Origin: Shewanella subflava
GTDB lineage: Bacteria; Pseudomonadota; Gammaproteobacteria; Enterobacterales; Shewanellaceae
NCBI RefSeq assembly: GCF_025971955.1
Contig: NZ_JAPDMX010000012.1
Span: 186,001 to 250,000, forward strand
Length of the DNA: 64,000 bases
Direction of reading: 5' to 3'
In this document: positions 26,702-48,813 of the stretch, in pieces
Position numbering within the stretch: position 1 is the stretch's first letter
Layout: each line of letters opens with the position of its first letter
Program-made: the position numbers and the translations under genes
Notes under the pieces: model-generated
What the model saw: the letters and a program-made list of their open reading frames with translations, nothing else
Database searches by the model: none
Told to the model about the DNA's origin: nothing

Positions 26702-27136
26702 TTAATCTTCTGTGTTAGCGTGCTGTTTTAGGGCAACAAGTAACGACTCAGATAATTCAGCTTTTTTACCTGTTTTAAAGTTAAACATCACCACCTTTGC
26801 CCAACCAATAGTGGTAACCGCCTGCTGTGCTTCACTATAAGCAGTGTAGTGCATAGTAAAACGATCTACGGCGATATCACTAATGGTCACGCCAACAATT
26901 AAGGTGTCAGGAAAGGTAACCGGTCGTTTATAACGGGCGTTGGTTTCGCTCAGCACTGGACCAACTCCGGTTTTATGCAAATCTTCCAGAAAATTAAGCT
27001 GACTAAAGAAGTCTAATCTTGCTGTTTCAAAGTATCTGAAATACACCGCATTGTTCACATGCTGCAAGGCGTCCATCTCTCCCCAAGCCACAGGTATTTT
27101 GGTGTGTATCGGGTGTGTTGCAATAAAGTCTTCCAT
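26702..27136 (-). CDS. Acyl-CoA thioesterase, hotdog (4HBT) fold
   Basis: A 144-residue thioesterase. VAWGEMDALQHVNNAVYFRYFETAR is the active-site motif of YbgC/FadM-like enzymes, with the catalytic Asp in MDALQHVNN. It is distinct in sequence from the thioesterase at 26045 and encoded on the opposite strand. It is the last recognised gene before a 1.25-kb gene-free tract upstream. Confidence 0.88.
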   Translation of the reverse strand: MEDFIATHPIHTKIPVAWGEMDALQHVNNAVYFRYFETARLDFFSQLNFLEDLHKTGVGPVLSETNARYKRPVTFPDTLIVGVTISDIAVDRFTMHYTAYSEAQQAVTTIGWAKVVMFNFKTGKKAELSESLLVALKQHANTED

Positions 27137-28342
27137 GGTCTGTCCTTGTTTTGACGATAAACGTTAATTTTAAACAACTGTTTAACTTGCGACCAATTTA
27201 GCAACCATTGAAACTGACAACAAGTATTATGCGATTGTTTTGTCATCAAATGGATTAGCAGCCGATCAAATGCCTTTGCTATTTAAGGCTGCTGCGTTGG
27301 TAAAAAGTCAGGTAACCATGTTTGTAAGAATAAAATCGTTTAGATAAAGTAATTTTATTGCTGCGGCATTGCCATTGAATAAATAACAGCTAACTTGCGT
27401 TACGGGTACCACTTTTTAGTTCATTTATCTTTGCTCAGGCACAGAAGACCATAGCTTCAATCTAATCAATTGCCTGCCGCAGGGATGTTCAGGATGAACT
27501 GAATGTCGCGATCACATGGATGTGAAAGAGCGACCTTATGTGCAAACACGACCGTGACACGCTGCACTCTTTATATAAATCAAAAGGTCCCTGAAAGCTC
27601 GGCCATGACGTCCATGTCATGGTCAAATTTGTTCCAGACAAATTTTGACATTCCCACCATCCATGGTGGTCAGTAGTCACGGCCGCGCTTACACTGGAAT
27701 TATTATCTCTTCGATTTGACTGTATTTGCTACTAATTAGGCGTAAAGCCTCCAAGACTCAATTTGAATTGAGGTCATCGAGAAAAGGCCGTGAGCTTGGC
27801 ATGGATGCCACGCTAGCTTTCGTTAGGCCAGGGATGGCCTATCGGAAGCGTTAGGGCTTTTCGACAATGGCCGAAGCAAGCTACAAATGAAGTTTAAAGC
27901 TGGATCGTTCCCCATCGAAAATATGCGCTTTTCAGCATTTTTCGTCTGGGGCGGCAGGGTGATCCAAGAGGGTATTGCTGTTGATACCCTTTTGGCCGGT
28001 GCAGGATGGAATCCTGCGATATTAATCCAAACGAAGTTTGGAAATGCAGTGTGAAATCCTGAGGTCTAAATCTGATGTTAACTCAGTACCACGACGTTGA
28101 TTGGTCTAGAATCGCAAAACTAAGTTAGCTTTCGATTCTTAAACCATACTAAATAAAGCCAATCGATAAAATGACCCAGTGTAGATACCGCTGAGGGTAT
28201 TGAAAAAAGGACATTTCCGTTAAGCAGCCATGGTTGGCGTAAAGCGTCCCGAAGCAGTATCTGCACATAAGCCTGTGGCAGGCAATGAATAGCATCAAGA
28301 TAAAGTCGCATTTGATAGCTAACTGAGAAAATCACAATTTTG
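27137..28342. other. 1.2-kb gene-free tract rich in structured hairpins
   Basis: No ORF here looks like a protein; the longest frames overlap hairpins. From about 27487 to 28283 it is filled with short stem-loops with unrelated stems, many with GGA in a 5-7 nt loop. The left part (27137-27480) is plain AT-rich upstream sequence of the thioesterase. An adjacent terminator serves mtnC. Confidence 0.7.
27487..28017. repeat. Cluster of GGA-loop hairpins on both strands
   Basis: Plus strand: GTTC-AGGAT-GAAC (27487-27499), TCAC-ATGGAT-GTGA (27512-27525), TGGC-ATGGAT-GCCA (27797-27810), TAGGCC-AGGGAT-GGCCTA (27824-27841), GCAGG-ATGGAAT-CCTGC (28001-28017). Minus strand: CCATGAC-ATGGAC-GTCATGG (27603-27622), AAATTTG-TCTGGAA-CAAATTT (27625-27645), CCACC-ATGGAT-GGTGG (27654-27669). 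An outer stem (27778-27788 with 27853-27864) encloses two of them. Stems differ while loops are conserved, which implies selection on structure. I do not recognise a named element. Confidence 0.65.
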
Positions 28343-28379
28343 CCCATAAAAAAACGACCGTTAAGATCGTTTTTATGGG
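28343..28379 (-). terminator. Rho-independent terminator of mtnC
   Basis: On the minus strand a stem CCCATAAAAACGATC / GGTCGTTTTTTTATGGG with loop TTAAC follows the mtnC stop closely, with U-rich sequence in the 3' arm. Confidence 0.75.
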
Positions 28380-28396
28380 TTAAAAATTGCCGTGAA

Positions 28397-29074
28397 TTAG
28401 CATTCTAGCTCATCAAATGAAGTGATGACTTTGAATTTGGCCGTACGAGCATTTGGCTCTCTGACCATTTGGCAGGTTAACATTCCTGCTGCGTCAGCCG
28501 CTTTTAATTCCTCAACCATATCTGAGATAAACAGCATTTGTTTTGGTTTCAAACTGATGGTGTTGCAAATATTGCTATAGGCTTGTTTATCTAACTTATT
28601 GCCAGTACGGGTATCAAAATGGCCACTAAAATGTGTAGTTAAATCGCCTGCATCAGTGTGGCTGAACAATAGTTTTTGTGCATCAACAGACCCTGATGAA
28701 AAACTGTAAATACGGATATTTGCCGCAATAATGCGCTCAATATTGTCGATAAAATCTGGGTATATATGGCCTTTGAATTCAGAACGATTATAGCCTTGCT
28801 TCCAAATTAGCCCTTGCAAGGTTTTTAATGGCGTGGCTTTACGATCTTCTTCAATCCATTGATTAAGAATTTCAGTAACACGCTCAAGGGTTGCATCTGG
28901 CTCTAAAGCAATATCTTTTACATCGCTAATGCAATAATCCACCAAGGCATTATCTTGATTTTTAGTTAAAAAATCAGCCATGGCTTTTTTAGAATACGGA
29001 AATAGCACATCCTGAATAAAGTTAAGATCTGTGGTTGTGCCCGCGGTATCAACGATGATAGCTCTAATACTCAT
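28397..29074 (-). CDS. mtnC: Acireductone synthase (enolase-phosphatase E1) MtnC
   Basis: A methionine-salvage enzyme converting 2,3-diketo-5-methylthiopentyl-1-phosphate to acireductone. This 225-residue HAD-superfamily protein starts [18 protein letters not shown] (MtnC family; the usual DIEGT is spelled DTAGT). It has [33 protein letters not shown] and [18 protein letters not shown]. The first nucleophile Asp (about residue 8) is present, but the usual second acidic residue of the DxE motif is Ala, which may affect metal or proton transfer. No other mtn genes are adjacent. Confidence 0.88.
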
Positions 29075-33555: not shown

Positions 33556-34947
33556 ATGAAAACCATGACATTATTTATGGTGCTAGCATTAAGTAGTCCA
33601 CTAGCTTATGCCAAATTTGACCACAAAGAAGCAATAACAGGGCCCTTTACGCAAGGTACAGATGTGACTTCTCAATGTATTGAGTGTCACGAGGATCATG
33701 CCAAAGAGTTTATGAAATCATCGCATTGGACCTGGGAGTTAAAACAAGACCTCCCCGGAAGAACCGTCATGCGTGGCAAGAAAAATAGCATTAACAACTT
33801 CTGTGTATCGATAAGCGGTAACGAACCTCGTTGCACCAGTTGTCATGCTGGCTATGGCTGGAAAGACAATAGTTTCGATTTTTCTGACATGACAAAAGTC
33901 GATTGTTTAGTGTGTCACGATACAACGGGAACCTATGTCAAAGAGCCTGCGGGAGCGGGAGAGCCTATGGCTAAAGTTGATCTCACACGGGTAGCCCAAC
34001 ATGTTGGCCAGCCAGTGCGAGATAACTGCGGAACATGTCACTTTTATGGTGGCGGTGGCGATGCGGTCAAGCATGGCGATTTAGATTCATCCATGTCTTA
34101 CCCCGATAAAGCGACCGATGTGCATATGGATACCGATGGTAACGATTTTCAGTGCCAAACCTGCCATACCACTGAAAGCCATCAAATTACTGGCAATGCG
34201 ATGGGCGTATCGCCTGGTGGCGAAAACCCTATAGGTTGTGAGAATTGCCATGATAGTGCCCCACATCAAAATAAAAAGCTCAATACTCACACTGCCGCGG
34301 TGGCGTGTCAGACATGTCATATTCCATTTTTTGCTAAAAATGAACCAACTAAGATGCGTTGGGACTGGTCTACCGCAGGAGATAAACTGCCAGAAACCAA
34401 AGATGAATATGGTAAAAGCACTTTTATGAACAAAAAAGGCACTTTTGTTTGGCAGAAAAATGTCCCACCACAATATGCTTGGTATAACGGCACTGCTGAT
34501 GCCTATATGGCGGGAGATAAAATGGATCCTAAAGGTGTAGTTAAACTCACCTATCCATTGGGCAATATCAATGATGCAAAGGCGAAGATTTACCCATTTA
34601 AAGTGCATACGGGTAAGCAAATTTACGACACTAATCTCAATATTATTATCACCCCTAAAACCTATGGCAAAGGTGGGTACTGGGATAAATATGATTGGGA
34701 TCTTGCCGCAGATTTAGGCATGAAAGCCAATGCTACTATGGTGGAAAAAGGCTTAAGCTATAGCGGTCAACATGATTTTGTTGAAACCGAAATGTGGTGG
34801 CGTATTAACCACATGGTGTCACCTAAAGAGCAAGCACTACAGTGCAGTGACTGCCATAACAAAGGCCAGCGCTTAGACTGGAAAGCATTGGGATATGATG
34901 GTGACCCAATGAAAAACAAGCAAGGCAAACGTCATACTGTGAACTAA
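33556..34947 (+). CDS. Octaheme tetrathionate reductase (OTR-type octaheme cytochrome c)
   Basis: A periplasmic multihaem reductase related to the Shewanella OTR, which reduces tetrathionate and, in vitro, nitrite and hydroxylamine. A signal peptide (1-19, ending AYA) is followed by exactly eight CxxCH motifs: CIECH, CTSCH, CLVCH, CGTCH, CQTCH, CENCH, CQTCH and CSDCH. OTR enzymes ligate one haem by lysine instead of a distal histidine; which lysine does so here cannot be told by reading. Length 463 is normal. It is the third gene of the cytochrome-porin-OTR operon and is followed by a terminator. Confidence 0.92.
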   Translation: MKTMTLFMVLALSSPLAYAKFDHKEAITGPFTQGTDVTSQCIECHEDHAKEFMKSSHWTWELKQDLPGRTVMRGKKNSINNFCVSISGNEPRCTSCHAGYGWKDNSFDFSDMTKVDCLVCHDTTGTYVKEPAGAGEPMAKVDLTRVAQHVGQPVRDNCGTCHFYGGGGDAVKHGDLDSSMSYPDKATDVHMDTDGNDFQCQTCHTTESHQITGNAMGVSPGGENPIGCENCHDSAPHQNKKLNTHTAAVACQTCHIPFFAKNEPTKMRWDWSTAGDKLPETKDEYGKSTFMNKKGTFVWQKNVPPQYAWYNGTADAYMAGDKMDPKGVVKLTYPLGNINDAKAKIYPFKVHTGKQIYDTNLNIIITPKTYGKGGYWDKYDWDLAADLGMKANATMVEKGLSYSGQHDFVETEMWWRINHMVSPKEQALQCSDCHNKGQRLDWKALGYDGDPMKNKQGKRHTVN

Positions 34948-48103: not shown

Positions 48104-48212
48104 AAAAAAAAGCCTCAGCAATTAATATTGCTGAGGCGCCGAATTTGGCTAGTCACTATCGCTAGTGAAATAAAGGTTTGAAAGATTGAACATCTTAACC
48201 TCTGTACCCTAC
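48104..48212 (-). ncRNA. spf: Spot 42 regulatory RNA
   Basis: A 109-nt Hfq-type sRNA that represses catabolic genes when glucose is present. The minus-strand sequence begins GTAGGGTACAGAGGTTAAGA and continues TGTTCAATCTTTCAAACCTT, nearly identical to the E. coli Spot 42 5' region. It ends with the terminator GCCTCAGCAAT-ATTA-ATTGCTGAGGC (in parts) followed by eight U. The -10 box is TATTAT at about 48219-48224. The gene lies just downstream of polA, as in enterobacteria and vibrios. Confidence 0.95.
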
Positions 48213-48813
48213 GACAAGAATAATACCTCATTAGCCTTAAATTGAAAAACTGTTTTTCGTAAAAAACGACAATTATGTGATAATGAGCACAAGTTCATTG
48301 TCTTTTTTGCGATGTTGACTAGGATCGGTCGCTCTTTCGAGGTTATTTTTTGCTGTGAATCATTTTTAACTCGAACAAAGTTCAACCAGCAAAGATCAAT
48401 AGCCCCGAATGAGTCTTAATGGTGGGGGCCATTATTTAACTTCCTTTCAATTTTTATCTAAACAGGTTTGAGTTCAGGCTAAGTGATGCTGTGCAAATAC
48501 TCCGCTTTCAAAATAACCTCAACTCGAGTTAAGACTTGAATAAACGAGATTTTAAATGCTGATATGCAAAAGCTTACTTTCAAATGTGAAGTTTGTGCTG
48601 ATCACAAGGCAAATTTACGCATTGATACCAAGCCTATTGCAAGTCAGTTAGCCTGCAAAAAGCTGTTTGATATAGCGTCATCGAGCTGAGATTAAATACT
48701 TGCCAATTAACGCTTTAATCTCGAAGGTGAATTTCTTGGTCGCTTAATATTTGCCATAGTTAAGCCTTTATAAGATTAACCATGGCAAGACTTTATATTA
48801 AAGGATTAAATGT
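48213..48813. other. Intergenic region between Spot 42 and polA
   Basis: About 600 bp holding the Spot 42 promoter and CRP-like site at its left end. The remainder (48300-48813) is AT-rich; I see no ORF with a ribosome site, no strong hairpin and no polA terminator. Some other unrecognised element could be present. Confidence 0.5.
48276..48291. promoter_or_regulatory. CRP-binding site upstream of Spot 42
   Basis: TGTGATAATGAGCACA matches the CRP consensus TGTGA-N6-TCACA at 9 of 10 core positions. It is centred about 72 bp before the Spot 42 start. In E. coli, CRP-cAMP represses spf from an upstream site, so the same control is likely here. Confidence 0.7.

Follow-up and report, generated by a model that had tools for sequence, protein, structure and literature searches.

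On balance, we read a hairpin-rich tract at 27397-28286 of the window (the whole 64,000-nucleotide stretch of Shewanella subflava DNA analysed here) as a compact copy of a non-autonomous, dispersed mobile cassette element whose ends are two inverted, outward-facing, folded arms. The tract is structured, its core covaries, its copies are dispersed, arms of this kind pair outward, and different arm-bounded cassettes occupy one locus. The window copy itself is compact and carries no cargo, and its right arm is typical of Shewanella.

Hairpins and arms of the window copy

The tract lies between a thioesterase-like gene (26702-27136, minus strand) and an mtnC-like gene (28397-29074, minus strand), both names being judged from translations. 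Its limits, which are uncertain and are assigned to neither strand, were drawn from the coverage by other copies (27396-28045 and 28151-28265), from linked ends and from 36 matches in the same genome. An inverted-repeat search found the linked ends: a right end segment at 28257-28286 (minus strand) pairs with two plus-strand segments on the left, 27469-27483 (with 28272-28286, 93% complementary) and 27535-27549 (with 28257-28271, 87% complementary). Both strands of 27455-28300 fold better than shuffled sequence, with z scores of -9.2 and -12.2 (20 shuffles each).

All eight of the GGA-loop hairpins that the initial annotation had placed in about 530 bp are present at their positions, and their strands run two plus, three minus and three plus, as it had claimed. 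The plus-strand pair at the left comprises hairpin 1 (27487-27499, AGGAT loop, stem of 4; read from the sequence at its earlier position) and hairpin 2 (CATGGATG, 27512-27525); the remainder, like hairpin 2, were recovered by a hairpin scan. The minus-strand group is formed by hairpins 3 (27603-27622, ATGGAC loop), 4 (27625-27645) and 5 (27654-27669, ATGGAT loop), and the second plus-strand group by hairpins 6 (27797-27810), 7 (27824-27841) and 8 (28001-28017, TGGAA loop), with covariation as further evidence for 6 and 7. Hairpin 4, with its CTGGA/TCTGGAA loop, fits the common loop form (A/T)NGGA(T/C/A) only loosely. Stems of at least 4 with GGA in the loop number 8 in the 531-bp tract; 300 dinucleotide shuffles gave a mean of 0.93 and a maximum of 6, and 117 other stretches of 531 bp a mean of 0.46 and a maximum of 3. 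With stems of at least 5 the count is 7, against means of 0.23 in shuffles and 0.12 in the other stretches. The eight hairpins are thus real and far above chance.

The right arm (27776-28045, plus strand), as defined by aligned copies and by arm order elsewhere, consists of a junction core, long hairpins, hairpin 8 and a small end hairpin, CCAAACGAAGTTTGG, at 28023-28039 (plus strand), the last placed from aligned copies. The core is a three-way junction of TwoAYGGAY type at 27779-27865 (plus strand), identified by the score of our arm model R1, by a match to RF01731 and by covariation. On the left, the block at 27560-27700 (minus strand) holds the three minus-strand hairpins, and we infer that it is the left outward-facing arm. 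It scores 13.2 bits against R1 (E 0.55, at 27572-27634, minus strand), and its first minus-strand GGA hairpin is preceded by GGCCGTGA, as in the right arm, by reading of the sequence. The two hairpin orientations in the window fit two inverted arms, the left of which matches the model weakly. Convergent CsrA-sponge RNAs, which the initial annotation had offered for the alternating strands, match that pattern less well than two outward-facing arms do. Hairpins 1 and 2, at the far left, point inward, against the outward rule, and sit within the linked end segments.

G008, the nearest relative examined, retains parts of the element at this locus; at 13 further Shewanella loci carrying mtnC, no match to the element appeared within the compared flanks. 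A phage or plasmid origin was discarded as a candidate: 27390-28300 was unmatched in 50,697 phage records and in 72,556 plasmid records, both searched in distant mode. A known RNA gene at the tract was likewise discarded, the only gathering-level Rfam match across the window being Spot 42 RNA at 48104-48222 (minus strand, 88.2 bits). Elsewhere in the window, a 463-aa frame at 33556-34947 (plus strand) with many CxxCH haem-binding motifs, an apparent multihaem cytochrome, stands downstream of a porin-like frame.

The junction core, its family and its dispersal

The core belongs beside a known candidate RNA family, TwoAYGGAY (RF01731), and the RNA core itself is not new; the initial annotation had known of no named family. 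A table in PMC2864571 gives TwoAYGGAY as a single RNA motif. RF01731 matches the window copy at 27793-27850 with 38.4 bits (E 3e-4), below the Rfam gathering threshold of 43 bits, and three other copies in the same genome exceed that threshold (43.9-46.1 bits). R1, which was built from 24 sequences including the window core, scores 105 bits on that core. The core and the family share two GGA-loop hairpins side by side within an outer stem, and the window repeat resembles the family in being present many times over in several genomes of the class. The window copy has the two adjacent AYGGAY-type hairpins, with loops ATGGAT and AGGGAT, the second being AGGGAT rather than AYGGAY. The difference is one of context: TwoAYGGAY is listed as a single RNA motif, of Rfam type Cis-reg, whereas here it forms the centre of longer arms, which occur as outward inverted pairs and may or may not enclose cargo.

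Covariation was measured on 24 Shewanella cores selected from 38 rows aligned earlier. A longer alignment (A2) had given a weak RNAalifold consensus (17 pairs, -8.6 kcal/mol) and was therefore trimmed to the core. In the resulting structure 87.3% of cells are paired, a share biased towards structure since the structure was written by hand from the same 24 sequences; shuffles and versions with the partners slid served as controls. Two-sided changes occur in 13 of the 30 pairs (9.2 +/- 1.5 in shuffles) and in 61 cells (23.2 +/- 3.4 in shuffles), and the covariation score is 0.233, where shuffles give 0.115 and slid partners at most 0.092. Pair types number 34, which is not above the shuffles (32.3). 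The initial annotation had described an outer stem enclosing two hairpins and had taken the paired but changing stems as the mark of selection on structure. The covariation of the core supports the latter claim, and the outer stem exists, the alignment placing its pairing at 27781-27789 with 27854-27862. This stem (helix 1) covaries in the core alignment; the RF01731 match spans model positions 49-108 only.

Core loops are mostly CANGGAYG or CAGGAYG on varying stems, and each of the two core hairpins retains GGA in 23 of the 24 rows. Twelve elements taken from four further genomes of the class all have GGA in the first loop, and in six of them the second loop is ACGAC, lacking GGA; the second GGA site is therefore not universal.

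At E 1e-6, R1 matches 55 of 60 Shewanella genomes, with as many as 50 copies in one genome; at E 0.001 its matches in the order extend to 24 of 148 genomes and to 10 of 65 genera. A plain DNA search with 27676-27953 reached 30 of the 60 Shewanella genomes. In the class, RF01731 passes its own cut-off in 12 of 229 genomes, and several of these have many copies. Pattern scans gave 45 stretches in viral contigs and at least 117 in genome contigs, figures that are not a measure of distribution; at E 0.1 the arm model matched none of the 45 viral loci. Among 44 genome-contig loci scanned with the arm model, two on Lachnospiraceae contigs (L180:799-880, minus strand, and L199:5015-5096, plus strand) were weak matches at 23.9 bits and E 0.005, possibly distant relatives in Clostridia.

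Within the host genome, 27300-28400 used as a query gave the 36 matches mentioned above, many of which fall on separate modules that are combined differently. Several window hairpins recur in other copies: hairpin 3 in L001, L002, L003 and L006, hairpins 4 and 5 in L001, and hairpin 8 on the minus strand in L006. Hairpins are also swapped. Among seven aligned copies, four have a plus-strand GGA hairpin; in its place L012, L013 and L014 have an insert whose hairpins have GGA on the opposite strand. The hairpins belong to a dispersed, mosaic repeat and not to one RNA gene. The initial annotation had proposed searching Shewanella genomes with the tract and measuring covariation; copies and covariation are both present, contrary to the outcome it had set against its own reading, and an undescribed dispersed element, one of the options it had offered, was a correct suggestion. 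The motif CAGGGATG occurs 46+49 times in this genome, against 4+5 for the reversed control, counts that overstate hairpins since 8 of the 95 fall in one coding repeat. That repeat (L007:2854-3342, contig C29) is a 162-aa frame in which 13 residues (TQTAGIPAVKVLE) recur almost unchanged; the resulting 39-base period produces the 8 sites. Another GGA hairpin, ctaaatcAGGGATgatttag, is found in three copies (L008:3346-3365, L009:3788-3807 and L009:3984-4003) in a different repeat context, and possibly represents a second hairpin repeat family.

Outward pairs, cargo and a variable locus

Among the matches listed, neighbouring cores no more than 6 kb apart form 24 outward pairs (minus then plus) and 1 inward pair, with 7 pairs both on minus and 6 both on plus. 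These counts, drawn from 266 core matches in 49 genomes with some weak order-level rows omitted, are partial, and pairs in related genomes may be orthologous. The excess of outward over inward pairs gives a one-sided binomial p of 8e-7, and when genomes are counted instead, 16 have an outward pair and 1 an inward pair, again among the matches listed (p 1.4e-4). A second set of 37 Shewanella contig loci, overlapping the first partly in species and counted by eye, gave 9 outward, 2 inward and 4 same-strand neighbours. Ten of the listed outward pairs are compact, with starts 199-257 nt apart, and fourteen are wide (750-5405 nt). The arms of each wide pair in L300-L309 match one another as inverted repeats, and pairs aligned side by side share one arm order: junction core, long hairpin, further hairpin, tail. 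Solo arms and same-strand pairs also occur.

Solo cores show two modest strand biases, which are confounded with one another. GGA lies on one replication strand in 46 cases against 24 in 14 genomes (p 0.012), assuming an origin at base 1 and a terminus half-way, and in the nine genomes with dnaA at the start of the record the split is 38 against 17 (p 0.006). The GGA strand is antisense to codirectional neighbours in 25 cases and sense in 10 in a set of 64 non-duplicate solo cores; here 5 duplicates and 21 cores lacking usable neighbours had been removed, and "solo" holds within the fetched stretch. Both biases fit better with a single-strand-DNA process, or with avoidance of sense transcription, than with mRNA leaders or tails. 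A preference for insertion between convergent genes was considered and dropped (8 of 35, with 16 of 85 among background pairs, a difference that is not significant).

The cargo set consists of the 14 wide pairs plus L307, whose left core came from separate searches. The scan covered a selection of the larger frames: it included no frame of L306 or L313, and left out or partly covered one of four in L305, two of three in the first half of L308, and the intron-like 543-aa frame of L308. With a cut-off of E 1e-5 and reverse transcriptase matches set aside, matches to a defence database were found for an AriA/AAA-type protein in L300 and another in L331, for cll- and beta-type proteins with an ImmA/IrrE-type protein in L304, and for a KAP-type protein in L307. 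HEPN (RiboL-PSP) proteins are encoded in L331 and in L332, the latter together with a 1064-aa protein lacking a match. L303 carries an ATPase for which AAA_16 is above the cut-off and NACHT below. L301 and L302 contain genes of metabolism or regulation, a group II intron maturase is encoded in L309, and L333 encodes a 1622-aa protein lacking a match. The same-strand intervals L334 and L335 contain ordinary-looking genes with no defence matches. Since one of ten flanking control proteins, a general regulator, also matched the defence database, defence genes can be said to occur in the cargo, with enrichment not established. Apart from the maturase in L309, no recombinase was found among the scanned cargo.

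The flanks of L331, from genome G038, recur in G015, G024 and G002, and on separate contigs in G029. In G015 the intervening DNA consists of one gene, a right arm and an apparent left-arm remnant; G038 adds to the gene of G015 an arm-bounded HEPN/AAA cassette; the HEPN cassette is also present, with other DNA, in G024 and G002, and part of it in G029. In the comparison of G038 and G015 the divergence starts, by eye, near the outer tail of an arm. One locus therefore bears different arm-bounded cassettes in related species, and arm-bounded DNA has been gained or lost there. A second locus has different insertions between the same flanks in G000 and G034. None of the locus comparisons gave a clean empty site or a target duplication, and the junctions are mosaic. 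Possible counterparts of MITE-type terminal inverted repeats are the inverted arms of the wide pairs and the linked ends of the window copy. In the host genome itself, about 2.7 kb including a 759-aa frame (L002:4255-6991, contig C33) lies directly outside a right arm and is missing in the relative G008 (L062), where the arm abuts the next shared stretch.

Mobility, CsrA and the meaning of the arms

We suggest that cassettes move by way of their arms, which would act as the cassette ends and be recognised as folded single strands. The right arm carries a TwoAYGGAY-type three-way junction with two GGA-loop hairpins, then further hairpins, and the left block has GGA hairpins on the other strand; in other places such arms are spaced by some 200 nt or have 0.75-5.4 kb between them, with genes that include phage-defence types. 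In the proposed mechanism, a mobility enzyme acting in trans would recognise the folded single-stranded arm, and the cassette would then move. A different account is that the arms are passive repeats, spread by a mover now extinct and serving as RecA homology for the exchange of cassettes between resident arms. Cassette differences at one locus do adjoin arm sequence, and the near absence of recombinases from the scanned cargo agrees with it. However, passive repeats alone leave unexplained both the scattered sites, with up to 50 copies in most Shewanella genomes, and the conserved, covarying fold, and we regard this account as unlikely. Far less probable still is that the repeat consists of REP/BIME-like palindromes moved by a RAYT (Y1) transposase. 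The two resemble each other as dispersed, multi-copy mosaics of palindromic units that sit between genes in several orientations, and the Y1 family is present in 32 of 60 Shewanella genomes. However, in our repeat the loop is conserved and the stems change, 14 of the 28 genomes with at least 10 arm copies have no Y1 match, and the copy numbers of Y1 and arms are unlinked (Spearman 0.04). The Y1/RAYT transposase that accompanies REP/BIME is thus not a regular companion of the arms, and Y1 was set aside as the mover. One Shewanella genome (G046) has fifteen Y1 transposase matches, eight of them equal in score, yet only 6 arm matches.

The initial annotation had likened the loops to CsrA sites, and we agree: the core loops resemble the CsrA consensus. 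CsrB, CsrC, RsmY and RsmZ are single sRNA genes. The family might act in the same way, as RNAs in which GGA hairpins from many copies, or from read-through, sequester CsrA like CsrB and RsmZ, the repeat then being maintained for that RNA role and the cargo being incidental. The loops, CANGGAYG or CAGGAYG on varying stems, suit this reading, as does the proposal of 2014 that TwoAYGGAY binds CsrA (PMC4333381). The gene csrA is present in 20 of 20 carriers tested and in 14 of 14 carriers among genomes of the class searched with RF01731; it is also present in 194 of 229 genomes of the class, so that co-occurrence is not discriminating. G-U exceeds A-C by 12 to 3 and 18 to 10 in loose counts, an excess that with growing strictness shrinks to 9 to 6 in the full set and turns to 2 to 4 among the far loci. 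Simple consensus scans of 27137-28400 gave 0 sigma-70-like sites, against 2.7 in shuffles, and 1 terminator-like site, against 1.2. The scans thus do not point to a promoter and terminator of the tract's own, as expected of sRNAs of the CsrB/RsmZ type, and a sponge gene with its own promoter is unsupported so far as these scans go. CsrB, CsrC, RsmY and RsmZ resemble the repeat in having repeated GGA in hairpin loops; they differ in being single genes, whereas the repeat has many dispersed copies, no promoter-like site and GGA on both strands. The antisense excess of the GGA strand and the missing second GGA in half of the far elements also speak against titration, and we doubt that it is the role of the family. 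That the hairpins, when transcribed, bind CsrA is a narrower prediction, about as apt to hold as to fail.

Returning to the mobile cassette element that we favour, it resembles integron gene cassettes and mobile insertion cassettes, in which non-coding structured ends bound cassettes lacking their own recombinase and cassettes accumulate at one locus. Unlike in integrons, the arms form outward inverted pairs rather than one repeated attC orientation, and no integrase or IS ends were identified. Full-text searches, covering few subscription journals and not establishing absence from print, gave no title or abstract describing the arms, the cargo or the hotspot; the new content, not found in the literature searched, is this context of outward inverted arms, cargo and a cassette hotspot. 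More tentatively, and with rather less than even confidence, the repeat may represent a new class of element in Gammaproteobacteria: two outward arms, folding as RNA or single-stranded DNA with CsrA-like GGA hairpins, would bound interchangeable cassettes, including phage-defence ones, that are moved in trans by an enzyme reading the folded arm and possibly tuned by CsrA, with TwoAYGGAY as its visible core.

An uncharacterised Rfam family thereby gains a genomic context: each genome may have many copies, which form inverted pairs that flank exchangeable genes. Should the arms prove to be mobility ends, they would represent an overlooked route for the spread of defence genes outside prophages, integrons and known transposons, and new defence cassettes could be sought by searching for arms. 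Should the GGA hairpins bind CsrA, this global regulator could be burdened by dozens of mobile copies.
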